A stretch of 64,000 nucleotides of DNA, from NCBI GenBank assembly GCA_017512365.1, contig JAFWGQ010000010.1:86917-150916 (forward strand). Direction: 5' to 3'. Origin of the DNA: Mogibacterium sp. (GTDB lineage Bacteria > Bacillota > Clostridia > Peptostreptococcales > Anaerovoracaceae). Positions 3,153 through 62,100 of this stretch are shown here, piece after piece; position 1 is the first letter of the stretch, and each line of letters starts with the position of its first letter. A program made the position numbers and the translations under genes. The notes below the pieces were generated by a model, which made no database searches, was not told where the DNA came from, and saw only the letters and a list, made by a program, of their open reading frames with translations.

Positions 3153-3190
3153 TCTGTGCAAGGCTCGAACTCCCGGCATCATGGTCGTGA
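3153..3190 (-). pseudogene. tRNA-Val 3'-half remnant fused to the 3' end of rqcH
   Basis: These 38 bp match the 3' half of the adjacent tRNA-Val (anticodon 3' arm, variable loop, T arm and part of the acceptor) at 34 of 38 positions. No 5' half is present. The fragment supplies the stop codon and last codons of rqcH. It lies upstream of the intact tRNA on the same strand, so it is more likely the scar of a tRNA duplication/deletion than a standard integrase attachment site. Confidence 0.7.
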
Positions 3191-4891
3191 GGGGAGCTTC
3201 GGGGTGACGTAGACTGTGCGGTTGTGCGTGAATATCACCATGCCCGGCTTTGAACCGTTCGGCTTCTTTACATATCTTACAGGCACGTAGTCAACGGGAA
3301 CATTGTCGCTGCCGCCCGCTTTGCTGTGATACGCCGCGATGGACGCCGCCTCGTATATCAGATCCGCGGACAGATCATCCACATTGCGGCCGTCCCCGAG
3401 CCTCACGATGACATGCGATCCCGGGATGTCCTTCGTATGCATCCATACATCGGTCTTGGACGCGAACTTCATAGTGAGCCAGTCGTTTTCAAGGTTGTTC
3501 CTTCCGACAAGGACCTCTGTGCCGTCGCTGAGGACATATCTGTACGGCTCGGGCTTCGCTGCCCTGCGCTTCCTCTGCGATGCCTTCTGGCGCCTCCTGA
3601 CATATCCGGTCTGCTCGAGCTCGTCCCTGATCGATTCGAGAAGGGGAACGCTGTCCGCCGATTCTAAGTTCTGCACGACGGACTCGAGGTACTCTATGTC
3701 CCTGTCGTTGTCTTCGAGCTGGGCCTGCTTCTCGTGTATCGCAGTCCTGGCTTTAGAATACTTCTTGAAATACCTCTGGGCGTTGGCCGAGGCGTTGGTC
3801 TTCTCATCGAGCGGGATGGTGATGAGACTGCCGTCATAGTAATTCGTGACGGTCACGCTCTTGGCGCCCGGTTCTACCATGTGGATGTTCGCTGTAAGAA
3901 GTTCTCCGTAGAGCCTGTATTTATCCGAATTCTCCGCGTTCAGAAGATCCTCGGAGAGCTTCTTTTTCTTGAGCATGGCCTTGTCGAGAGCTGCCTGAGC
4001 CGACTTCAGAAGCGGCATCGACTTCTGGCGAACGAGGTTCGATGACTCGCGATTCGAGTAATAGTAGTCGATGCATCCGGATACCGTGTCGAAAAAGACC
4101 GTGTCGAGATCCTCGTACTCCTCAAGATCGCAGATGTGGAACTCACGCGGAGTCCCTTCGCTGTCGATATATACTCGGGGCCTGCATGTGCCGTCGCCGA
4201 CCGATCCGACTATCTCGATGAGCCGCTTTGCCGGAGCTCCCGAGATGAGAGATGCGTCTTCGCCTTTGCAATAGCGCAGCATCTCGCGGCTGACGGCAGG
4301 GGATATCCCGCTGACCCTGGCCATGATGGCGCGGTCGCCGCACGGCAGTCCGGTGAGAGGTCCGACCTCTCTGAACGGTATCTTGTCCTGGGCCGGAGGG
4401 TACTGATAGATGACGCCCGGCAGAAGCTGGCGGTATCTGTTGACGTCTATGGATATGCGCTTGATCGAGTCTATGATCTTGCCCGTCTCGAGGTCGACCA
4501 GCACGATATTGCTGTGCTTTGACATGATCTCGATTATGAGCCGTCTGCAGACAGAAAAGCCCATCTCGTTCTGGGCCTCGATATCTATCTCGATGATGCG
4601 CTCGGAATCCCTCTGCCTTACCTCCGTGATGCGGCCTCCCTGCAGATGCTTTCTGAGCAGCATGCAGAAGGTAGGCGGCTGATCCGGATTGGTATAACTG
4701 CCTTCAGTGAGGCAGACTCTCGCAGACTGGCTGCCTGCCGACATGAAAAGGCGCACATTGCCTCGTTGAGTGTGGATGTGCACCAGAAGATCATCGGGAC
4801 CCGGCTGATAGATCTTTTCGATCTTGCCGGGAACGATCCTTTCATTCAGTTCTTTTGCTTCCGCATAGGTGATTATGCCGTCGTAAGCCAT
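3179..4891 (-). CDS. rqcH: Ribosome quality control factor RqcH (NFACT protein)
   Basis: This 570-residue NFACT protein was once called fibronectin-binding protein. RqcH binds obstructed 50S subunits carrying peptidyl-tRNA and recruits alanyl-tRNA to add a C-terminal alanine tail degron. The NFACT-N domain fills roughly the first 260 residues and includes RDSERIIEID with the conserved D-x-R type motif. A coiled-coil middle (about 290-430) follows, then an NFACT-R domain with DVWMHTKDIPGSHVIVR from residue 481. Length is normal. The last residues after YVTP (KLPSRP) are encoded by the tRNA remnant at 3153-3190. It follows the DUF4914 gene by 9 bp and is probably co-transcribed with it. Confidence 0.93.
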   Translation of the reverse strand: MAYDGIITYAEAKELNERIVPGKIEKIYQPGPDDLLVHIHTQRGNVRLFMSAGSQSARVCLTEGSYTNPDQPPTFCMLLRKHLQGGRITEVRQRDSERIIEIDIEAQNEMGFSVCRRLIIEIMSKHSNIVLVDLETGKIIDSIKRISIDVNRYRQLLPGVIYQYPPAQDKIPFREVGPLTGLPCGDRAIMARVSGISPAVSREMLRYCKGEDASLISGAPAKRLIEIVGSVGDGTCRPRVYIDSEGTPREFHICDLEEYEDLDTVFFDTVSGCIDYYYSNRESSNLVRQKSMPLLKSAQAALDKAMLKKKKLSEDLLNAENSDKYRLYGELLTANIHMVEPGAKSVTVTNYYDGSLITIPLDEKTNASANAQRYFKKYSKARTAIHEKQAQLEDNDRDIEYLESVVQNLESADSVPLLESIRDELEQTGYVRRRQKASQRKRRAAKPEPYRYVLSDGTEVLVGRNNLENDWLTMKFASKTDVWMHTKDIPGSHVIVRLGDGRNVDDLSADLIYEAASIAAYHSKAGGSDNVPVDYVPVRYVKKPNGSKPGMVIFTHNRTVYVTPKLPSRP

Positions 4892-42879: not shown

Positions 42880-43953
42880 ATGGAATTTGATCTGCACGAA
42901 GTAAGATCGGAAATACTGGAAAAGTGTCCTGAATGGATCGATCTGATGAATGCTGTCGAATTCAGGAACAGTTCAGAAGCGGATCCGGCAGGATACAGCG
43001 GGAACAGGGTCCTGTACAACAGCTTCCGGATGCGGCATTTCAGCCGGGAGGCGCAGGAGTTCCTGATAGCCGGGCAGCTCATGCACATACAGCTCGCTCA
43101 CCAGCAGAGGGGAGTGAAAAAAGACCGCAGGCTCTGGGACGCCGCCTGCTCGGCTGTGGTCAGCGAGCTTCTCATCGGGAACGGATTTGAGCCGCCGGCA
43201 AATATCTTCCGCCATGAAGATGCAGACGGCATCAGCGCAGAGGAACTGTACGATATCCTCTGTGAAGAGGCCGTCGAGGACCCGCGGGAAGAGCCGGAGG
43301 AGAAGACCGAAGAAGCCGGAGAGGCGACGGAGCTTCCGGCACATCCTGATGATGACAGCGTGAAGAGACCGGGAGATCTTCAGGGCGCTCAGGTCCGCGA
43401 AATAGATGATCCGGGTCTTGCGCACGCCGTGGCGGGACTGTCGGATCTTCTGGAGCCGAGCCTGCAGATGGAATTCGACTGGTTCCCGGCGGACAGGATA
43501 AGGGACGGAATGCTGAAAGAACAGTTCAGGCCGTATCCTGTGCCGCACGCTGAGATACTCCTGGACACAAGCGCATCCATAGACACGGATCTGCTGAGGG
43601 CTTTTGTAAAAGGAGTCAGGGGCATTCTCAGGGAGGATGCTGTCGTAAAGGTCGGCTGCTTCGATACCGAGTTCTACGGATTCCAGGAGATACATTCAGA
43701 GAAGGACATATCGGAGCTCGAGATAAGAGGCTCAGGCGGAACGGATTTCGAGACTGCCGTAAAAGCCTTTACCGGCGATGCGGAGACAAAGATAATATTC
43801 ACCGACGGCTATGCTGATATGCCGTCCGCCAGGTGCGACGCCATCTGGCTGGTATACAGCGATACAGAGGTGGATCCGCCGGGAGGGCATGTCATATACG
43901 TTAAAAAACCTGAGGAGATAAACAATAATGAAATCGATTTTCTTATCACATGA
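42880..43953 (+). CDS. VWA-like protein with degenerate metallopeptidase-type N-terminus (DUF2201 type)
   Basis: The protein has 357 residues. The N-terminal part resembles the DUF2201 putative metallopeptidase domain, but where HExxH would be expected the sequence reads LMHIQLAHQQR, so a zinc site is probably lost. A Glu/Pro-rich linker (about 125-165) follows. The C-terminal VWA-like domain has the MIDAS motif DTSAS (about 228-232) and GGTDFETAVKAF. It overlaps the AAA ATPase gene by 26 bp. Such VWA partners usually receive or present substrates for MoxR-type ATPases. The ATG at 42880 was chosen because the AAAGGGG site lies upstream and the preceding sequence is the groEL terminator. Confidence 0.75.
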   Translation: MEFDLHEVRSEILEKCPEWIDLMNAVEFRNSSEADPAGYSGNRVLYNSFRMRHFSREAQEFLIAGQLMHIQLAHQQRGVKKDRRLWDAACSAVVSELLIGNGFEPPANIFRHEDADGISAEELYDILCEEAVEDPREEPEEKTEEAGEATELPAHPDDDSVKRPGDLQGAQVREIDDPGLAHAVAGLSDLLEPSLQMEFDWFPADRIRDGMLKEQFRPYPVPHAEILLDTSASIDTDLLRAFVKGVRGILREDAVVKVGCFDTEFYGFQEIHSEKDISELEIRGSGGTDFETAVKAFTGDAETKIIFTDGYADMPSARCDAIWLVYSDTEVDPPGGHVIYVKKPEEINNNEIDFLIT

Positions 43954-45559
43954 GCAGCTGTTCGGGAATCCGCTCCCTCTATTCAGAAGGATCGGGACAG
44001 CCGCCCAGGCCGGGGACCTTGTCCTTGCAACTGCGGAGGATGACGGGTTCACATTCAGCTCCGGCTGTGTAAACTATTACCTTTCCGGGGAGGACTGCGT
44101 CGACAGATTCGGACGCGACAGCATTTCCGAAATCTGCGCTGTCAGGCCGGTGATCATGCTTGAGCCTGGAGACGAGAAGCTGCTGACACATGCCCGCGAA
44201 GTAAGCGGCATAGTGACGGTGGAGCTCGGATCATACCCGTCAGTCATACTTGAGCATTCGCTGCGCGACATGGCTGAGGAGCAATACAGGGAAGGGACCC
44301 TCAGAAAGACCGGGAACAGCTTCACGATCGCGGGCGGGAAAAAGGAAGTCTTCAGGCTTGGCGCCAAGCGTATCGTGAGGGTGAACGTCACGGAAAAGAT
44401 CATGAGCGGATATGTGCAGCTTTCCGACGGCACTGCAGTCAGCGCGGGCGGGGAGATCATGCTCGAGCTGAGACCTGTAAGATGGTACTACGATGAGGTG
44501 AACAGGATGCTGATATGCGGCAAAGCTCTGTTCGCGGATCTCTCGCGAAAAGATGCCGAAGCATACCTTAAGGACGGGTTTATTGAGGAGCTGCTTGCCG
44601 GAGATGCGGAGGAGACCGCAGCCGACGGTTCCGGAGCATCGTATCATGTGGGCGAGCATGACGAGCTGGATCTCATACGGGCGTATGTAAAAGCGGATAT
44701 ACCGGTGTTCATACACGGGCTCACGGGAGACGGGAAGAGCGACCGTGTAAAAGAGATAGACCCCCAGGTGCTGGACATAGAGCTGGTGAACGAGACTCCC
44801 GAGACGATAAACGGACGGGCCGTATATAACGAGACAAACGATGAGATCATAGACATAAAGCCGGTATGGCTGGTGAAGCTCGAGCGCCTGTGCGAGGACG
44901 GAGAACTTCATATCCTGTTCTTCGATGAGCTCACTAATGCCACGAAGCAGACCCAGGCAGTGATATTCAAGATCGTGCTGGAGCGTTTCGTGAACAACCG
45001 ATGGCCTCTCCCGGAAAACGCGCGCATAGTAGCTGCAGGGAACGACCGGGCCGAGTCGAGCGTCTCACATGATCTGGCTGAGCCGCTGTTCGGCAGGTTC
45101 GCACATGTATATATCCGGACAACGGTCGAAAACTGGATGCCGTGGGCCGTGAGAAAGAGGATCAATCCGTATGTCATGGAGTTCCTGGCCAACAATGATC
45201 TCTATCTCAGGACGGATTACACAGGGACGGAAGGCTACGCCGATCCGCGGCGCTGGGAGATGGTCTCGCGCGTACTGGACAGCTCGGGCAACGATTTTGC
45301 GCTGATCGAGCCCATAGTGGGGCGCGATACTGCTGACGCCTTCATAAGATTCTTCCGCGCGCAGGAAGAGATGGCAGGCATCGGGAACTATACCGATGAG
45401 GAGATCGCTCACATGACTGTTTCCAGAAAGTACCAGATCGCGCAGCAGTGCCTGTACGCTGCAGCCGCGAAGCCTGAGGAGGCCGAAAGGCTGGTCGGGA
45501 GGCTCGGAGCCGAATTCGCAGCCTGGTTCAGGTATGTGCTCAGCAGAAAGGTCCGCTGA
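43928..45559 (+). CDS. MoxR-like AAA+ ATPase with an extra N-terminal domain
   Basis: The protein has 543 residues. Residues 1-230 form a domain that resembles DUF6273-type modules of gut Bacillota (VELGSYPSVILEHSLRDM, EQYREGTLRKTG, LELRPVRWYYDEV). The AAA+ module follows: Walker A-like HGLTGDGKSDRVKE (about 258-271), Walker B ILFFDELTNATKQTQ (about 334-348), sensor-1 IVAAGNDR and arginine-finger-type residues near EPLFGRFAH. The lysine and serine of the P-loop are present but the motif is unusual (GLTGDGKS). It is translationally coupled to the VWA gene. The cellular target is unknown. Confidence 0.75.
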   Translation: MKSIFLSHEQLFGNPLPLFRRIGTAAQAGDLVLATAEDDGFTFSSGCVNYYLSGEDCVDRFGRDSISEICAVRPVIMLEPGDEKLLTHAREVSGIVTVELGSYPSVILEHSLRDMAEEQYREGTLRKTGNSFTIAGGKKEVFRLGAKRIVRVNVTEKIMSGYVQLSDGTAVSAGGEIMLELRPVRWYYDEVNRMLICGKALFADLSRKDAEAYLKDGFIEELLAGDAEETAADGSGASYHVGEHDELDLIRAYVKADIPVFIHGLTGDGKSDRVKEIDPQVLDIELVNETPETINGRAVYNETNDEIIDIKPVWLVKLERLCEDGELHILFFDELTNATKQTQAVIFKIVLERFVNNRWPLPENARIVAAGNDRAESSVSHDLAEPLFGRFAHVYIRTTVENWMPWAVRKRINPYVMEFLANNDLYLRTDYTGTEGYADPRRWEMVSRVLDSSGNDFALIEPIVGRDTADAFIRFFRAQEEMAGIGNYTDEEIAHMTVSRKYQIAQQCLYAAAAKPEEAERLVGRLGAEFAAWFRYVLSRKVR

Positions 45560-48743: not shown

Positions 48744-51700
48744 ATGAAGAAACGATTATTAGGCATTCTATTCAGTCTTGCACTGATGCTGACAATGATG
48801 CCGGTACTGGGGCTGACCCAGCCGGTGCATGCTACAACTGATCCCGCACTCAGCATTACCAGCCCGGCCGTAGGACAAGTTATCGGCAATGATGGCAAGA
48901 ACTACTACTATAGCAGCCTACCTCAAAGCGTGACCGCCGTAGCAAAGATCGCTTACGTTGACGAGACAAACCATAAGGGTCTGGCTCTGGCAATGACCGA
49001 CGAGAGCGACACGAAATACGGGTATGAAGCTGACACAGCCGCATCCGCCCACACACCGGCATTCACCGGCGGCACATGGAAACTTGCCAGCAAAGACGAG
49101 TGGGATAATATGATCAAAGCAGCTGGTGGCTTCGCAAGCCTACGGGACGGCTTTAGTAGCGTCGGCGGCACTAATATTAATATGAAAGGCAACTATTGGT
49201 CGAGTACAACGCAGGGCGCCAATAAGTATTACATCGACTTTAAAAATGGTTATTGGTATTCCGTTGGCCAGAGCACTACTAAGATCTATGTACGCGCCTG
49301 TCTGACATTCGACATTGTAACAACTTACCCTCTCTGGGTTGGCGGCACACCGGTGACGAGCGCGAACAAGGACGATGTGTTTAATGACCAAAAGGTGAGC
49401 TACACGCCTGCTACAGACACATCTGCAGCCATACTGAAGTTGAACGGATATGATAACGAAGGTGCTGTAGGTGACAAAGACGCTGCGATTTATGCCGAAG
49501 AGGATCTGATCATAGAAACGACCGGCGATAACAATGTTGAAAATACATCTACAGAAGATAATACTTGTGCCATCTGGGTTACCGGAGATCTGACCTTACA
49601 GGGCAGCGGTACGCTAAATGCTACAGGGCTTGCCGGTATTCAAGCCTATCAGAAGCTGATGATTGAGGGCGGAATAATTAGGGCTACAGGCATAAGCTCC
49701 GGAATCGGTGGTTTAACGGTTACTATCAATAATGGAACCATTGAAGCTACAGCCACTGATAACGTTTCTTACGGCATATTTGGTGGTGGTGGGGTAACGA
49801 TCAATAATGGTCAAGTTACCGCATCCGGCTCAACCGCAGGGATATCAGGATTCGTTAAAAACGCCATCGCCGGTACCGGCTGGACTGACACGGAAGGTAC
49901 CGAAGGAAAAGCGGATATCGAAGTATCAGCAGAGACTGGACAGGATCTGAGCGACTATAGGAAAGTCCAGTTCCCGGCATTGGTTGAATACCCACTCTGG
50001 GTCGGCGGCACACGGGTGACGAGTGCGAACATGTATGGCGATGGATGGAGCTACACTCCTGCCACCACCGAGGGAGGTAGCACAACACCGGCCACCCTGA
50101 AGCTGAACGGATACAGTTACGAAGGTGCGGGGTATGAAAACGCTGCCATTTATGCCAAAGAGGATCTGGAGATCGAATTAACGGGTGATAACACGGTTAC
50201 AGCAACGTCGAGTTCACCAATGGCATATGATAGCTATGGAGTTAAAGTCGTTAAAGTCGAAGAAGATGGCAAATTTTTAAAAATCAGTGGAAACGGTAAA
50301 CTGACTGCCACCGGCGGCAAAGATGGTATCCGCACTTTTGGCGATATTATAATCGACAGCGGCACAGTTGAAGCATCCGGAAGTGAGCATGGAATTGTAA
50401 CCGAGCCCGGCGTAGTAAGGATAAATGGAGGCACTGTGACTGCTTCAGGCAGTATGGACTATGATGGCACCGGCATTTTGGGCTCAGGTGTAGAGATAAA
50501 AAGCGGCACCGTGACCGCTTCAGGCGGCGGCCAAGGTATCTACTCTCCTAGTGTTAAGATCACAGATGGTGTAACTAGTGTCATCGTATCATCTAATCAT
50601 AATGTGATAACTGGCATCGTGAAAAACGCCGTCGCCGGAACAGGCTGGACGAACACTGCCGGCACCGAAGGAAAAGCGGATATCGCAGTATCAGCAGAGA
50701 CTGGATGGGATCTGAGCGACTATAATAAGGTCCAGTTCCCGGCTGCGCACGAACATAGTTTCACTTACAACGCCAACGGTGCAACTATCACGGCAGAATG
50801 CTCTTCGGACGGCTGCACGCTGCCTAATAATACGGCCACCCTGACCATCGAAGCGCCGCAACATACGACCTATGGCGACGGAAAAGAGGAGAAAGCACAG
50901 ATCACCGATTCGGATGGCATACAGGGTGGAGCAAAAGTAAGCTATTTCAATACTGACGCAGAAGGTGGGAAAACCGGTAATGCTTTGACCTCGGCCCCTA
51001 CCGGCGCAGGCAAATACTGGGCGGAGATCACCCTCGGACCTGGCACTGATAATAAGTCAGCCACCGCACATGTGGTCTACACGATCGCAAAGGCAACTCC
51101 GACTATAAATACAAATCCGACTGCAAGTGCTATCACCTACGGCCAGGCACTGTCAGCCAGCACATTAAGCGATGGTGTGGCAAGTGTTGACGGTTCGTTT
51201 GCATGGACCACTCCTACAACGAAACCGGATACTGCAGGCACTCCTTCTTATGGGGTGAGTTTCACGCCGAACGATACTGACAATTACAATACAGTAACAT
51301 GCACCGTTTCGCTGACTGTGAATCAGAAAGAGGTCGGTCTTTCATGGGCCGATACCAAGCTGACATACAACGGCCAGCAGCAGGCTCCGACAGCTACAGC
51401 AACGGAACTTGTATCCGGTGATACGGGACAGGTAAGTGTCATCGTGACCGGTGGACAGACAAATGCGAGCGCTACTGCATATACTGCTACAGCCAGCGGA
51501 CTGACCGGTGAAAAGTCGGGCAACTATAAGCTGCCGACCGATAATACAACAACGTTCACTATCTCGCCTAAATCCATAACCGGAGCAAGCGTGACACTTG
51601 ATAAAACTGAACTCACATTCAACGGTTCTTCGCAGACCGTAAACGTGACCGGGGTATCTCTTGACGGAGTGAACCTGGATGCTAATACCGATTATGGTGT

Positions 51701-53153
51701 TAGCGGCAACACGGAAACAAACAAGGGCGATTACACCGTGACCGTAACCGGTAAAGACAACTATACCGGCAGCGCAACAGCTAACTGGAAGATCGTTGCA
51801 AAGGCAATGACCGTCACGGCGGATCCAGTCAACGAAACATATGACGGTAATGAATACAGCATCACAGTAAATGTGACAGATCCGTCAAGCGGAACAACGA
51901 TCAATTACGGTACAGAAGCAGGCACATATGATCTTAGCGAAAGCCCGAAGTTCAAGGATGCAGGAACACATACCGTATACTTCAAGGTCAGCGGAAACTT
52001 CAATTATAATGACTATACAGGTCAGGCTGCAGTGACGATCGCTAAAAAGCCTGTCAATGCAAGCGTCTCGGCTGACGATAAAAAGTATGACGGGAATACC
52101 GTTGCGACAGTAGCTGCTTCTGTTTCAACAGGTGATCTGATCCAGGGTGACAGCATAAAGATCACAGGACTTAAGGGATCCTTCGCAGATAAGAATGCGG
52201 GCGAAGACAAGACTGTCACCATTGACAGCAGTGCTAAATCGATTTCCGGAACAGGTTCAGAAAACTATGAAGTAACGATACCGTCGGAGACAAAGGCATC
52301 GATCAGCAAGGCAGCGGCAACAATCAAGGCTAAAGACCAGAGCATCAAGGTCGGGGATACAGTACCTGATCTGTCGGATCCGGTTCTGGATAAGCACTAT
52401 ACCGTTACGGGTCTGGTTGCAGGAGATGCTCTGACTGCTGCTCCGAAACTTGCATATGCATCAAAGCCTGACAACACAAAAGCAGGCACTTATGAGATCA
52501 CAGCAAGCGATGCAAATGCAGGCGGCAATTATGAGCTGAGTTATCAGAAAGGTACTCTGACTATCTCAGAAGCACCTGCAGCAGTACCAACAGCAAAGGC
52601 AGTGCTGGCAGCCAAGGGAATCGCCAAGGGCAAGACTGCTCTTAAGTTCAAATGGAACAAGGTCAGCGGCGCAGCTAAATATGAGGTCTGGATGGCAAAG
52701 TGCGGTAAGAAGAGCACGATAAAGATGGTAAAGACTCTCAGAGCACCGAAGACCAGCTGGACAAAGAAAAAGCTGAAAAAGAACACGGCGTACAGGTTCT
52801 ATGTAGTCGCGAAGGATGCATCGGGCAATGTCATATGCAAGAGCGTTACAGGCCATGCATATACTGGCAACGTCAGAGGCAAGTACACCAATGCAAAGAG
52901 CCTCAAGGTGAAGAAGAGCTCATTCACCCTGAACAAGGGAGGCACGGCCAAGATCAAGGCGACACAGAAGAAGGCCGGGAAGGGCAAGAAACTGTGCAAC
53001 CATGCAAAACTGCTGAGATACAAGAGCAACAATACATCTGTTGCCAAAGTCAGCAGCAGCGGCAAGATCATAGCTGTAGGTGCAGGATCCTGCACAGTCT
53101 ATGTACAGACCGTGAATGGCATCTGGAAGACGGTAAAGGTCACTGTTAAATAG
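48744..53153 (+). CDS. Large secreted multi-domain repeat protein
   Basis: The protein has 1469 residues with a signal peptide (1-31, MKKRLLGILFSLALMLTMM). Residues about 105-190 look like a DUF1566/Lcl C-type-lectin-like module (NYWSSTTQGANKYYIDFKNG). Two related units follow, each beginning YPLWVGGT.VTSAN (about 195 and 416) and ending DLSDY.KVQFPA, made of short beta repeats (INNGTIEATA, IKSGTVTASG). Residues about 780-1260 are MBG/YDG-type immunoglobulin-like repeats, then a fibronectin-III-like region (about 1275-1370) and a Big_2-like domain to the end. No LPXTG or S-layer anchor is seen. Its GC content is lower than the core genes. An adhesin or surface ligand-binding role is plausible only. 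Confidence 0.75.
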   Translation: MKKRLLGILFSLALMLTMMPVLGLTQPVHATTDPALSITSPAVGQVIGNDGKNYYYSSLPQSVTAVAKIAYVDETNHKGLALAMTDESDTKYGYEADTAASAHTPAFTGGTWKLASKDEWDNMIKAAGGFASLRDGFSSVGGTNINMKGNYWSSTTQGANKYYIDFKNGYWYSVGQSTTKIYVRACLTFDIVTTYPLWVGGTPVTSANKDDVFNDQKVSYTPATDTSAAILKLNGYDNEGAVGDKDAAIYAEEDLIIETTGDNNVENTSTEDNTCAIWVTGDLTLQGSGTLNATGLAGIQAYQKLMIEGGIIRATGISSGIGGLTVTINNGTIEATATDNVSYGIFGGGGVTINNGQVTASGSTAGISGFVKNAIAGTGWTDTEGTEGKADIEVSAETGQDLSDYRKVQFPALVEYPLWVGGTRVTSANMYGDGWSYTPATTEGGSTTPATLKLNGYSYEGAGYENAAIYAKEDLEIELTGDNTVTATSSSPMAYDSYGVKVVKVEEDGKFLKISGNGKLTATGGKDGIRTFGDIIIDSGTVEASGSEHGIVTEPGVVRINGGTVTASGSMDYDGTGILGSGVEIKSGTVTASGGGQGIYSPSVKITDGVTSVIVSSNHNVITGIVKNAVAGTGWTNTAGTEGKADIAVSAETGWDLSDYNKVQFPAAHEHSFTYNANGATITAECSSDGCTLPNNTATLTIEAPQHTTYGDGKEEKAQITDSDGIQGGAKVSYFNTDAEGGKTGNALTSAPTGAGKYWAEITLGPGTDNKSATAHVVYTIAKATPTINTNPTASAITYGQALSASTLSDGVASVDGSFAWTTPTTKPDTAGTPSYGVSFTPNDTDNYNTVTCTVSLTVNQKEVGLSWADTKLTYNGQQQAPTATATELVSGDTGQVSVIVTGGQTNASATAYTATASGLTGEKSGNYKLPTDNTTTFTISPKSITGASVTLDKTELTFNGSSQTVNVTGVSLDGVNLDANTDYGVSGNTETNKGDYTVTVTGKDNYTGSATANWKIVAKAMTVTADPVNETYDGNEYSITVNVTDPSSGTTINYGTEAGTYDLSESPKFKDAGTHTVYFKVSGNFNYNDYTGQAAVTIAKKPVNASVSADDKKYDGNTVATVAASVSTGDLIQGDSIKITGLKGSFADKNAGEDKTVTIDSSAKSISGTGSENYEVTIPSETKASISKAAATIKAKDQSIKVGDTVPDLSDPVLDKHYTVTGLVAGDALTAAPKLAYASKPDNTKAGTYEITASDANAGGNYELSYQKGTLTISEAPAAVPTAKAVLAAKGIAKGKTALKFKWNKVSGAAKYEVWMAKCGKKSTIKMVKTLRAPKTSWTKKKLKKNTAYRFYVVAKDASGNVICKSVTGHAYTGNVRGKYTNAKSLKVKKSSFTLNKGGTAKIKATQKKAGKGKKLCNHAKLLRYKSNNTSVAKVSSSGKIIAVGAGSCTVYVQTVNGIWKTVKVTVK

Positions 53154-58493: not shown

Positions 58494-58554
58494 TGCGTTC
58501 ATGATGCTCAGCGACATTCTGATGCTCCAACTCTGAAAGAGGTAAGTGATTATC

Positions 58555-59316
58555 GTGACTAAGGATGAAGTGACAAGAGCCAGGATCTCAGACAGGATAG
58601 ATCAGTGCCGTGATGGTTACTATGTGACCGGCACGGATTTTCTTGATTCACATGAGCAGTCGATAGCCATGAGCGAGGCGAGGTCTGCGGGCGGCGTGAG
58701 AGTATTCATGTATGGGGGATATGATGATGCTGAGCGAAGGATGATGATCTGTATACCTGCTGATCTTGAGCTTAGCGATGAGGATGCGGCTGACGGCCTG
58801 GCAGAGGTGCTCCGTATAACAAAGCCGGCGGCTTCACGTGAACTGAGCCACAGGGATTATCTCGGATCCATGCTGGCGCTTGGCATAGACAGACGGCTCA
58901 CGGGCGATATTCTGGTAAGAGAAGACGGCGCAGATATCGTAATCATGCCCGAGATCGCGCAGTTTCTTATGAGAGAATTCTCAAGTGTCGGCAGGGTGGA
59001 GATAAAAACAGAGATAATTGGCATAAAAGACCTCATGATACCCGAGGCGCGTTTTGAGATGATATCCGGCAGCATCAGTTCGCCAAGACTCGACAGCGTG
59101 ATATCTGCGGCTTTCAGGATCCCGAGAGCCAAGGCTGCTGAAGCCGTGAGGAGCGGACTGGTTTCTGTGGATCACGTGGAGTGCCTGAAGCCCGACGCCC
59201 GCGTCGCTGAAGGAATGAGTCTGGTGCTCAGGGGCAAAGGAAAGGCAGTGCTTGAGGAGACAGGAGAGACATCCCGTAAGGGGCGTACCCGGATCAGAAT
59301 AAAGCGATTCATATGA
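58555..59316 (+). CDS. ylmH: S4-domain ribosome rescue factor YlmH
   Basis: The protein has 253 residues. The N-terminal part matches YlmH (VRVFMYGGYDDAERRMMICIP, LSHRDYLGSMLALGIDR). A C-terminal S4 RNA-binding domain (about 180-240) has RIPRAKAAEAVRSGLVSVD. In Bacillus YlmH binds obstructed 50S subunits and takes part in ribosome-associated quality control beside RqcH; an rqcH gene also lies in this window. The GTG at 58555 is chosen because GAAAGAGG lies 11 bp before it, while a GTG at 58546 is too close. It overlaps the next gene by 4 bp (ATGA), so the two are translationally coupled. The usual division-gene neighbours of ylmH are absent. Confidence 0.86.
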   Translation: MTKDEVTRARISDRIDQCRDGYYVTGTDFLDSHEQSIAMSEARSAGGVRVFMYGGYDDAERRMMICIPADLELSDEDAADGLAEVLRITKPAASRELSHRDYLGSMLALGIDRRLTGDILVREDGADIVIMPEIAQFLMREFSSVGRVEIKTEIIGIKDLMIPEARFEMISGSISSPRLDSVISAAFRIPRAKAAEAVRSGLVSVDHVECLKPDARVAEGMSLVLRGKGKAVLEETGETSRKGRTRIRIKRFI

Positions 59317-62033
59317 ACAACAGGAAGATCACGATAGGAATACTGGCTCATGTGGATGCGGGCAAGACCACTCTCTCGGAGGCGATTCTTTACCTTACAG
59401 GAGAGATCAGAAAGCCGGGCAGGGTGGATCACGGAGATGCATTTCTCGATGACAATATCATCGAAAGAAACCGCGGCATCACGATATTTTCAAGGCAGGC
59501 CCGCATTACGCTCAGCAAGGACGGCGGGAACAGAACCGAAGCGACGCTGATCGACACTCCGGGGCATGTGGACTTCACTGCAGAGACCGAACGGTCATTG
59601 TCAGTTCTTGACTGCGCTCTGCTGGTGATCAGCGGATCTGAAGGCATACAGGCGCATACCAGGACTCTGTACAGGATGCTTCAGGAGCACGGCATCCCTG
59701 TTTTTGTATTCATTAACAAAATGGATATTGCCGTGCGGGATGTCGATGCGCTTATCGCAGAGCTCAACAGTGAGCTGGAGATGAATGCCGTGGATTTTTC
59801 GGATGCAGCAGAACGGACAGAGAGGTTCATAGATGATGTGACATTGTATTCGCCTGCGCTGGCTGAGGCGGTGCTTGACGGGGATGGAAGCCTGTCAGAT
59901 GAAGATATTGCCTGCGCGATATCCAAAGGGGAAATCGTGCCGTGCGTGTCGGGGTCTGCGCTGAAAACGGAAGGTGTCAGAGAACTGATCGACGTTATGG
60001 CGGCATATGCAGGGGCGCCGGAATACGGCAGTGATTTCGGCGCAAAGATATATAAAGTGACCGAATCAGAGGATGGAGAACGGCTTTGCTTCATAAAGAT
60101 AACCGGAGGAGAACTAAGAGTCAGGGACAGGGTGACAGTAAGAAGCGCGAGGGGCGGAGAACGGGAGGAAAAAGTGAGCCGGATAAGGCTGTACTCCGGG
60201 AGCCGCTTTGAGCAGACTGACACAGCGGCAGCCGGCACGGTGTGCGCCGTCACAGGGCTCGGACAAGCCCTGCCCGGAGACAGCCTCGGAGCCGAGGATC
60301 CGGTTTCCCGTTGCACAGTCGATCCATATATGGTGTATAAGGTGCTGCCGCCTGCGGGCATGGATCCTCACAGACTAAAAGCGGATCTTGATATACTCAC
60401 TGCCGAAGACCCGGTCCTTCAGACAAGATGGTCAGCAGATGGCAGCATAGAGATGCGCCTTATGGGACAGGTGCAGCTCGAAGTTCTGCAGTCTGTCATA
60501 AAAGAACGCTTCGGATATGATGCCGGCTTTGATACAGGCAATGTGCTATATCTTGAGACGATCACCGGAAAATACGAAGGCGTCGGACATTTCGAGCCTC
60601 TGCGTCATTACGCTGAAGTGCACCTGATACTGGAACCGGGTGAACGAGGCAGCGGCATTGTGATCACAAGCGATGTTCCCGAGGATGAGCTTGCGATAAA
60701 CTGGCAGAGGCTGATAATGACACACATAGAAGAAAAGGAGCATCTCGGGACCCTCACGGGAGCTCCTCTTACCGATACTAAGATAACGCTTGCGGCAGGC
60801 AGAGCCCATGCGAAGCACACCGAAGGAGGAGACTTCAGAGAGGCGACATACAGAGCCATAAGAAATGCCCTGATGCAGGCTGCGCGCGACGGTAACGCTG
60901 TTCTGCTTGAGCCATGGAGTGAATACGAGATAGATGTTCCGGCCGGCAGCACAGGCCGTGTCATGACCGACATAAAACAGATGGGAGGAACGCAGGAAAG
61001 CCTGGAGCAGAGGGGAGACCGCGCGGTCATGACAGGAAGAGTGCCCTCTGCGGAGATAACAAACTACCCGCAGACCCTTGCAGGCTATACATCAGGCGAG
61101 GGAAGTCTGTCGCTTGCTCAGAGCGGATATGATATCTGTCACAACACCGATGAGGTGGTCGCCGAAAGAGGCTACGATGCGGAGCGCGATGTCGAGAACA
61201 CAGCCGATTCTGTCTTCGTCAGTCACGGCGGCAGCGATATAGTCAGCTGGGATGAAGTCCCTCAACACATGCACATCAGGAGCGTGCTCAGAAGCAGATC
61301 TGCGGAAGATGATGCAGCGGAGGTGCAGGACGAAGATCGTTTCCCGGGATCAGACGGCGACCCATATGACATGCTCGATGTAAGGGAGCGTGCAAGGAGA
61401 AGAGCCGCCGCTGAAAAGGAACTCAGGGATATATTTGAGAGGACATACGGGACGCGGAAGAACCACAGATATAAGGACAGGATCGAAAGAAGATACGGGG
61501 CCGGGGTACGGGCAGCTGCTGACGATAAGGAGGCAGCGAAAAATGCTGCGAGAAACGCAGAGATAAAAGCCAGACATGAGCACAGGAGTTCCGGACAGAC
61601 TGACGAAGAGGAGACTCTCATCCTGATAGACGGATACAATCTGATCTTTTCGGATGAATATATGAGATCGCTTGCCGCTGAAGACATAGGTTCTGCCCGT
61701 GACCATCTTATTGAGCGGCTCAAAAACTATGCCGGCTATACGGGATTCGAGGTCAATGTGATATTCGATGCGTATAAGGTGGTGCCGGGTGAGGGCAGCA
61801 GTGAGGATCATCAGGGCGTAAAAGTGATATACACGGCTGCGGATGAGCCGGCTGACATTCGTATAGGCATGATGATCAGCACAAAAAAGGGAAGGCGCAT
61901 ATATGCTGTCTCGTCGGATAAGCTCGTGAAGCAGGATGCCTGGAGCCACGGCGCCCTCCGCATCTCATCGCGTGATTTCATTCAGCTGCTGGACGAAACA
62001 GATGAAGAGATAAGAGCCAGCCTCCGTAAATAG
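59313..62033 (+). CDS. EF-G/TetM-like GTPase fused to a NYN (YacP/Rae1-like) ribonuclease domain
   Basis: The protein has 906 residues. Residues 1-650 form a complete ribosomal translation GTPase of the TetM/EF-G type: G1 AHVDAGKTT (12-20), G2 Thr57 in RGITIF, G3 DTPGH (81-85), G4 NKMD (135-138), a domain IV (PLTDTKITLAAGRAHAKHTEGG) and a domain V ending (EGSLSLAQSGYD). A charged linker (about 660-765) leads to a NYN/PIN-like domain (768-900) like YacP/Rae1: LILIDGYNLIF with D773, IFDAYK with D819, EPAD with D848 and SSDK with D869, then HGALRISSRDF. All four acidic residues of the likely nuclease site are present. Rae1 cleaves mRNA in the ribosomal A site, so a GTP-driven, ribosome-delivered nuclease is a strong inference. 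It overlaps ylmH by 4 bp. Calling it tetracycline resistance is not supported. Confidence 0.88.
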   Translation: MNNRKITIGILAHVDAGKTTLSEAILYLTGEIRKPGRVDHGDAFLDDNIIERNRGITIFSRQARITLSKDGGNRTEATLIDTPGHVDFTAETERSLSVLDCALLVISGSEGIQAHTRTLYRMLQEHGIPVFVFINKMDIAVRDVDALIAELNSELEMNAVDFSDAAERTERFIDDVTLYSPALAEAVLDGDGSLSDEDIACAISKGEIVPCVSGSALKTEGVRELIDVMAAYAGAPEYGSDFGAKIYKVTESEDGERLCFIKITGGELRVRDRVTVRSARGGEREEKVSRIRLYSGSRFEQTDTAAAGTVCAVTGLGQALPGDSLGAEDPVSRCTVDPYMVYKVLPPAGMDPHRLKADLDILTAEDPVLQTRWSADGSIEMRLMGQVQLEVLQSVIKERFGYDAGFDTGNVLYLETITGKYEGVGHFEPLRHYAEVHLILEPGERGSGIVITSDVPEDELAINWQRLIMTHIEEKEHLGTLTGAPLTDTKITLAAGRAHAKHTEGGDFREATYRAIRNALMQAARDGNAVLLEPWSEYEIDVPAGSTGRVMTDIKQMGGTQESLEQRGDRAVMTGRVPSAEITNYPQTLAGYTSGEGSLSLAQSGYDICHNTDEVVAERGYDAERDVENTADSVFVSHGGSDIVSWDEVPQHMHIRSVLRSRSAEDDAAEVQDEDRFPGSDGDPYDMLDVRERARRRAAAEKELRDIFERTYGTRKNHRYKDRIERRYGAGVRAAADDKEAAKNAARNAEIKARHEHRSSGQTDEEETLILIDGYNLIFSDEYMRSLAAEDIGSARDHLIERLKNYAGYTGFEVNVIFDAYKVVPGEGSSEDHQGVKVIYTAADEPADIRIGMMISTKKGRRIYAVSSDKLVKQDAWSHGALRISSRDFIQLLDETDEEIRASLRK

Positions 62034-62055: not shown

Positions 62056-62100
62056 CCGGGGACTTCCGGAGAGAGCATTTCCTCTCCCCGGGCCCTTTTT
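62056..62100 (+). terminator. Terminator after the GTPase-nuclease gene
   Basis: CCGGGGA (62056-62062) pairs with TCCCCGG (62085-62091), with an inner GGAGAG/CTCTCC stem, followed by GCCCTTTTT. Confidence 0.85.

Follow-up and report, generated by a model that had tools for sequence, protein, structure and literature searches.

In the accessible parts of the literature, Rae1 is described as an endonuclease of the A site which depends on the ribosome and on translation (PMC6613710, PMC10100781), and the Rae1 of Bacillus subtilis cuts mRNA in a translation-dependent manner (PMC10632193, PMC10100781). The YacP family had earlier been proposed to take part in rRNA and tRNA maturation (PMC4342817). 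The same report stated that Tet proteins of ten Clostridiales species had acquired a YacP-like NYN domain, and a possible resistance mechanism was suggested for them (Atkinson 2015, PMC4342817). In the present work a stretch of 64,000 nucleotides of contig JAFWGQ010000010.1 from Mogibacterium sp., called the window below, was analysed with regard to one gene, which encodes a translational GTPase fused to a C-terminal NYN nuclease domain. The Rae1 work of Leroy (2017) reportedly came later than the first account of such fusions.

The architecture is not new and was already described in 2015, and the fusion of the window almost certainly belongs to the same family as the NYN-carrying Tet proteins of that report, where, in the accessible text, they are taken as Tet proteins with a possible role in resistance (PMC4342817). 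The literature search, which covered few subscription papers, gave no account of the fusion beyond this one. Loss of yacP from its operon, near-exclusion of fusion and separate yacP, a separate GTPase clade and short forms of the protein are additions to that account as far as its accessible text goes. The fusion is explained here as a Rae1-type, mRNA-cutting NYN nuclease for which a ribosome-dependent member of the EF-G/Tet superfamily of GTPases would be the carrier and whose cleavage on stalled ribosomes would be gated by GTP, an explanation that is given about an even chance of being right. It is put forward because the GTPase motifs and the NYN active site are intact, because yacP is nearly replaced and because of the short forms.

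Architecture of the fusion protein

The GTPase, the linker and the NYN domain are encoded in a single uninterrupted reading frame (Table 1). An earlier reading of the same DNA, made from the sequence only, had claimed an intact translational GTPase with a C-terminal NYN domain in 906 residues, and this was borne out by the Pfam domains. The motifs HVDxGKTT, DTPGH and NKxD of the G domain were conserved in an alignment of 21 fusions, the columns H13, V14, D15, G17, K18, T19, T20, D81, T82, P83, G84, H85, N135, K136 and D138 being invariant. The EF-G_D2 model matched residues 253-325 (E 5.9e-7) and the EFG_III model residues 338-404 (E 8.7e-4, 19.7 bits, below the gathering score of 27). The G motifs and the EF-G domain order place the protein in the EF2/EF-G superfamily, with EFG_III alone under its cut-off, and the front part resembles the solved chains of EF-G, TetO and TetM by sequence.

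The NYN_YacP model (PF05991) matched residues 770-904 with E 8.7e-31 and 107.6 bits against a cut-off of 24.6, which indicates membership of this family. The last 154 residues matched the solved YacP chains 5mq8 (E 1.7e-16, aligned over residues 769-906) and 5mq9 (E 2e-16) of B. subtilis. The four acidic residues D773, D819, D848 and D869, which had been pointed out at the expected NYN positions, did not vary among the 21 aligned fusions, nor among the 13 rows of another alignment, made up of the window protein and 12 named relatives. The same conserved acidic residues are present in B. subtilis Rae1. Rae1 consists of one domain only and has about 170-200 residues, whereas in the window the NYN forms the C-terminal part of a GTPase protein. 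The NYN match is thus present, the acids are kept and no frameshift separates the two halves, these being the points on which the sequence-only reading could have failed. As the uninterrupted fusion recurs in many other genomes, it is neither a chance product nor a frameshift artefact. On the 3' side of the gene, a G+C-rich inverted repeat followed by T's was seen by eye at about 62056-62100 and is likely a terminator.

Replacement of the separate yacP gene and distribution of the fusion

The fusion and the separate yacP nearly exclude each other. Samples of 198 genomes of the window's order, 293 of its class and 398 of its phylum were compared. In the window's own genome the only NYN_YacP match was the fusion, and no free-standing yacP was found; the absence of a stand-alone yacP was a point that the sequence-only reading had proposed to check. 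Of the 56 fusion genomes in the order sample, two (G104 and G196) also had a separate NYN, while 118 of the 142 genomes without fusion gave an NYN match. The class sample gave a separate yacP in 4 of 103 fusion genomes against an NYN match in 89 of 190 others (Fisher p 2e-16, a value which takes no account of genome relatedness); the second match of the four double genomes was shown with its length for one only (G522, 174 aa), and the 89 include one match under the family cut-off (G500) and one possibly cut fusion (G429).

The chromosomal site of yacP supported this observation. The order rlmB, yacP, sigma-factor gene was found in all six genomes with separate yacP that were checked (G121, G054, G093, G052, G196 and G104), of which G196 and G104 are double genomes having the fusion plus a yacP beside rlmB. 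In the fusion-only genomes checked, NYN was absent beside rlmB in 10 of 10; rlmB was directly followed by the sigma-factor gene in seven, and other genes adjoined rlmB in the remaining three, all of the window's genus (the identity of the sigma factor was checked by Pfam in three genomes). This absence shows that the free yacP has left its old site in fusion genomes. The genome of the window has no NYN beside rlmB and so lacks the free-standing gene of Rae1/YacP. Two rlmB copies with nearly equal score were present in the window's own assembly (G000, contigs C58 and C67, loci L271 and L267), which has an estimated contamination of 6.94%; a second strain or a duplicate may be the source.

One short form included, the fusion was present in 56 of the 198 genomes of the order sample, and the unfused GTPase of the same subfamily (635-682 aa, 695-812 bits) in 25; ten further genomes gave weaker matches to the GTPase profile only, nine of them Tet-like and one a fragment (G114). 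The corresponding numbers for the class sample were 103 and 19 of 293. In the phylum sample 35 of 398 genomes matched at E <=1e-150, consisting by frame length of 28 fusions and 7 unfused GTPases, and some of these fusions fall outside the window's class as defined by the taxonomy used. Title or record assigned all 14 named fusions (12 loci and two plasmid records) to Clostridia. Within the genus, 30 of 47 genomes matched the full-length protein at E <=1e-100. The distribution of the fusion is mostly vertical-looking. That Rae1 strictly depends on the GTPase was suggested by the order sample, where 25 of 25 genomes with the unfused GTPase have YacP, and was then dropped; in the class sample YacP was found in 13 of 19 such genomes against 76 of 171 other genomes without fusion (p 0.055), and Bifidobacterium is an exception to the rule.

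The GTPase subfamily and its short forms

The relation of the GTPase part to the Tet proteins was analysed using model scores, a tree and the tip of domain IV. Among the NCBIfam models, tet_protect scored best for the window protein with 393 bits, under the equivalog cut-off of 775, and the seven other subfamily members (355-436 bits) were all under it as well. Two of three Tet-type controls passed with 964 and 853 bits, and the third (L235, 702 bits) was also under the cut-off. The protein has a translational GTPase core in common with EF-G and RF3, but its scores were under both cut-offs (251.6 against 659.4 bits for EF-G and 138.7 against 473 for RF3) and it carries an extra nuclease.

In the GTPase tree of 67 rows with EF-G as outgroup, the fused and unfused members came together in a single clade (100/99), next to a clade of the Tet side (99/94). 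Inside the subfamily the fused clade (38 rows, 100/99) had the unfused clade (18 rows, 100/98) as its sister. Nested within the fused clade are three NYN-less Actinomycetota sequences, two from Bifidobacterium and one from Collinsella, which group with one fusion at 98/95 and are best read as having lost the NYN domain after transfer. The deep branching order is provisional because the amino-acid composition of many rows is unusual. The tree needs two changes between the fused and unfused state, which are taken to be a gain and, in Actinomycetota, a loss; a single origin of the fusion is probable, and several separate origins are not favoured. The NYN tree agrees weakly with a single origin, as the solo group had 70/99, the bootstrap was not settled and the window row was long-branched.

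Most subfamily members read G(R/K)xHxKHTxGGDFR at the tip of domain IV. The deviating members are L133, L142 and L232, the former two being among the 12 named fusions, and H499, H502, T503, G505, G506, D507, F508 and R509 showed no variation among the 21 aligned fusions. The window protein reads HTEGGDFR against STP(A/S)DFR in four of five Tet-side rows and therefore does not have the loop of the Tet type, and EF-G rows read YHxVDS at this position. The Tet-side row of Paenibacillus (L146) reads HTHPLDF, which is partly like the loop of the subfamily. The C-terminal extension (about residues 612-656) was common to fused and unfused members; in matches to profile A2 the unfused members reached position 634-636 and the Tet-type proteins mostly stopped at 585-616. 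With Tet(M), Tet(O) and Otr(A) the window protein shares the EF-G-like domains G to V and tet_protect as its nearest NCBIfam model, but it differs in its score, tip loop, separate clade, C-terminal extension and NYN domain. By the available tests the GTPase part is a group separate from the Tet proteins. A plasmid copy of the fusion from Agathobacter rectalis (L375:2989-5790) bears the annotation of a resistance protein of the TetM/TetW/TetO/TetS family, and the fusion is probably misnamed in some annotations.

NYN searches of the 17 same-genus genomes without a full-length match were positive in three (G125, G200 and G216). The short forms (L087, L088 and L254), which come from three same-genus species, lack the EF-G domains IV and V, the match skipping from residue 401-407 to 699-703 in all three, and they keep domains II/III, the linker patch and the NYN domain. 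Pfam analysis of L087 and L088 revealed GTP_EFTU, EF-G_D2 and NYN_YacP and neither EFG_IV nor EFG_C, while in L254 domains IV and V were missing from the sequence match. The G domain of G216 is unreadable, as this stretch consists of N. The two readable short proteins have kept, by eye, the GTPase motifs and the four acids, and since they are related (grouped at 100/100 in the GTPase tree) the loss of domains IV and V may be one event. RF3 has the layout G-II-III, which is also that of the short forms. As three same-genus species are without domains IV and V, domain IV is not required throughout the family, and the GTPase and the nuclease are the conserved pair across long and short forms.

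Gene neighbourhood, proposed function and rival explanations

The ylmH-like gene starts at 58546, nine nucleotides before the start of 58555 given earlier, and the 4-bp overlap of the fusion start with it was confirmed from the sequence. Its product matched YlmH_RBD (E 4.3e-13) and S4 (E 1.1e-4, 22.3 bits, just below the cut-off of 22.8), and with TIGR03069 it fell short of the cut-off (117 bits, cut-off 201.55). RqcH was likewise found encoded in the window as stated. The quality-control factors YlmH and RqcH, as described in the accessible text of PMC11317155, thus stand as a neighbouring gene and a gene of the same window, but they are proteins distinct from the fusion and their gene linkage with it is not conserved. 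No neighbour family was conserved beyond 10 of 133 loci, and the largest clusters look like large superfamilies. A conserved operon with ylmH, pyrG, carB or 5'-nucleotidase was rejected, linkage not being recurrent except for the ylmH of L142. Elsewhere in the window, a 1469-aa protein (48744-53153) had one YDG domain as its sole Pfam match, and a 543-aa reading frame (43928-45559) between a DUF2201-type protein and IMP dehydrogenase had no Pfam match at E 1e-5.

Table 1. Positions in the window of the fusion gene, its parts and the two quality-control genes
Feature	Position	Strand	Details
GTPase-NYN fusion gene	59313..62033	+	906 aa, ATG start
G domain, residues 5-232	59325..60008	+	GTP_EFTU E 1.5e-49 (Pfam)
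Domains II and III, residues 253-404	60069..60524	+	Pfam EF-G_D2, EFG_III
EF-G-like domain IV, residues 410-523	60540..60881	+	EFG_IV E 4.3e-16 (Pfam)
Domain IV tip motif GRAHAKHTEGGDFR, residues 496-509	60798..60839	+	alignment columns
EF-G domain V, residues 530-611	60900..61145	+	EFG_C E 3.9e-19 (Pfam)
C-terminal extension, about residues 612-656	61146..61280	+	SVFxxxGxxxxxxWDxV, conserved columns
Variable linker	61281..61616	+	one conserved patch: E703, I707, T711 in at least 90% of rows
NYN_YacP/Rae1 nuclease domain, residues 770-904	61620..62024	+	Pfam, YacP structures, alignments
ylmH-like gene	58546..59316	+	256 aa, GTG start; stop overlaps the fusion ATG by 4 bp
RqcH (NFACT) gene	3179..4891	-	NFACT_N E 6.5e-133; context

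The ribosome-delivered, GTP-dependent mRNA cleavage of the sequence-only reading is retained here by inference. The GTP-bound fusion would dock at the factor site of ribosomes with an empty or obstructed A site, domain IV of the full-length forms may clear the A site first, and the tethered NYN nuclease would then cut the mRNA inside the A site or close to it. Hydrolysis of GTP would release the fusion, leaving a ribosome on a truncated message for tmRNA or ribosome-associated quality control (RQC). In this way the fusion would correspond in Clostridia to free Rae1, with delivery as an added step under the control of GTP. Since a domain IV of the EF-G type and a Rae1 domain are expected to contend for the same A site, the full-length protein would act in steps, and in the short form without domain IV this conflict would be removed. 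A wider proposal of a GTP-gated mRNA endonuclease, in which ribosome entry of Rae1 would be the purpose of the GTPase subfamily, Rae1 would have the unfused GTPase as an overlooked partner in species with two separate genes, and the nuclease of the short form would replace domain IV as the A-site cutter, is possible but doubtful.

Several points weigh against a GTPase-carried Rae1. In the genus, 14 of 47 genomes, several of them less than 80% complete, were without any NYN match, and the fusion gene is therefore dispensable. The unfused GTPase occurred without any YacP in 6 of 19 class-sample genomes, and in two Bifidobacterium genomes (L136 and L144) a GTPase nested in the fused clade was found with neither NYN nor YacP match; the GTPase thus has some function of its own. 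Rae1 in turn does not need the GTPase in general, as YacP occurs in many genomes that lack such a GTPase. Because domain IV and the nuclease cannot share the A site at once, the sequence of events is conjectural. The 2015 publication, moreover, proposed the fusion as a possible resistance mechanism (PMC4342817, accessible text).

That proposal, a tetracycline ribosomal-protection protein whose added RNase is a new mechanism of resistance, draws on the common superfamily, on tet_protect as the top-scoring model and on the annotation of the A. rectalis copy. It is considered improbable, as the window protein and seven of seven other subfamily members scored far under 775 bits, the clade is apart from the Tet rows, the tip loop differs (L146 being partly similar) and the fusion is frequent in the class sample. 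Domain IV of TetM and TetO is the domain that dislodges the drug, so that displacement by it is impossible in the short forms. It is more likely that the fusion carries the nuclease to ribosomes than that it serves tetracycline resistance, and the comparative evidence shifts the picture from an odd resistance protein towards a GTPase-carried Rae1, as judged from sequence comparison. The nuclease could also be directed at rRNA or tRNA in ribosome maturation or turnover, with the GTPase as its ribosome anchor. The former proposal for the YacP family (PMC4342817) and the position of separate yacP next to rlmB, an rRNA methyltransferase gene, are in line with this; the characterised Rae1 of B. subtilis cuts mRNA in the accessible accounts (PMC10632193, PMC10100781), and this explanation is very improbable.

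The chain may instead combine two functions, an NYN that docks by itself as an ordinary Rae1 and a GTPase with an unrelated EF-G-like or LepA-like role in translation, the fusion merely keeping both near. Separate Rae1 does work without such a GTPase, and the GTPase occurs without NYN in Bacillota and Actinomycetota, but the short forms have dropped domains IV and V and yet hold the GTPase domains, the linker patch and the NYN together, and yacP is replaced in a nearly exclusive manner; this explanation is judged somewhat unlikely. The sequence-only reading had also proposed a dedicated partner of YlmH in RQC. The overlap with ylmH and the presence of RqcH in the window remain in its favour, and a second tandem was found in Lachnospiraceae AC2029 (L142:4227-7952), distant from the window in the tree, where a ylmH with YlmH_RBD and S4 ends 3 nt before the fusion; this is suggestive but no more. 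Against it, a YlmH reading frame was found at 1 of 169 other distinct fusion loci, that of L142, so that 168 lacked one in the fetched flanks, including every other same-genus locus (at least 300 nt of upstream flank were available for 167 of the 169). An RQC module with conserved ylmH linkage is thus not seen, the joint action with YlmH is weakly indicated by the two tandems, and such a partnership is quite improbable.

At least one copy of the fusion is labelled as a tetracycline-resistance protein though the group misses the curated cut-off, and this naming could inflate the counts of resistance genes in gut metagenomes. If the explanation as a GTPase-carried Rae1 is true, a translational GTPase can control mRNA cleavage on bacterial ribosomes that have stalled, and a single protein that occurs naturally in long and short forms would allow a direct test of the route of Rae1 to its target.

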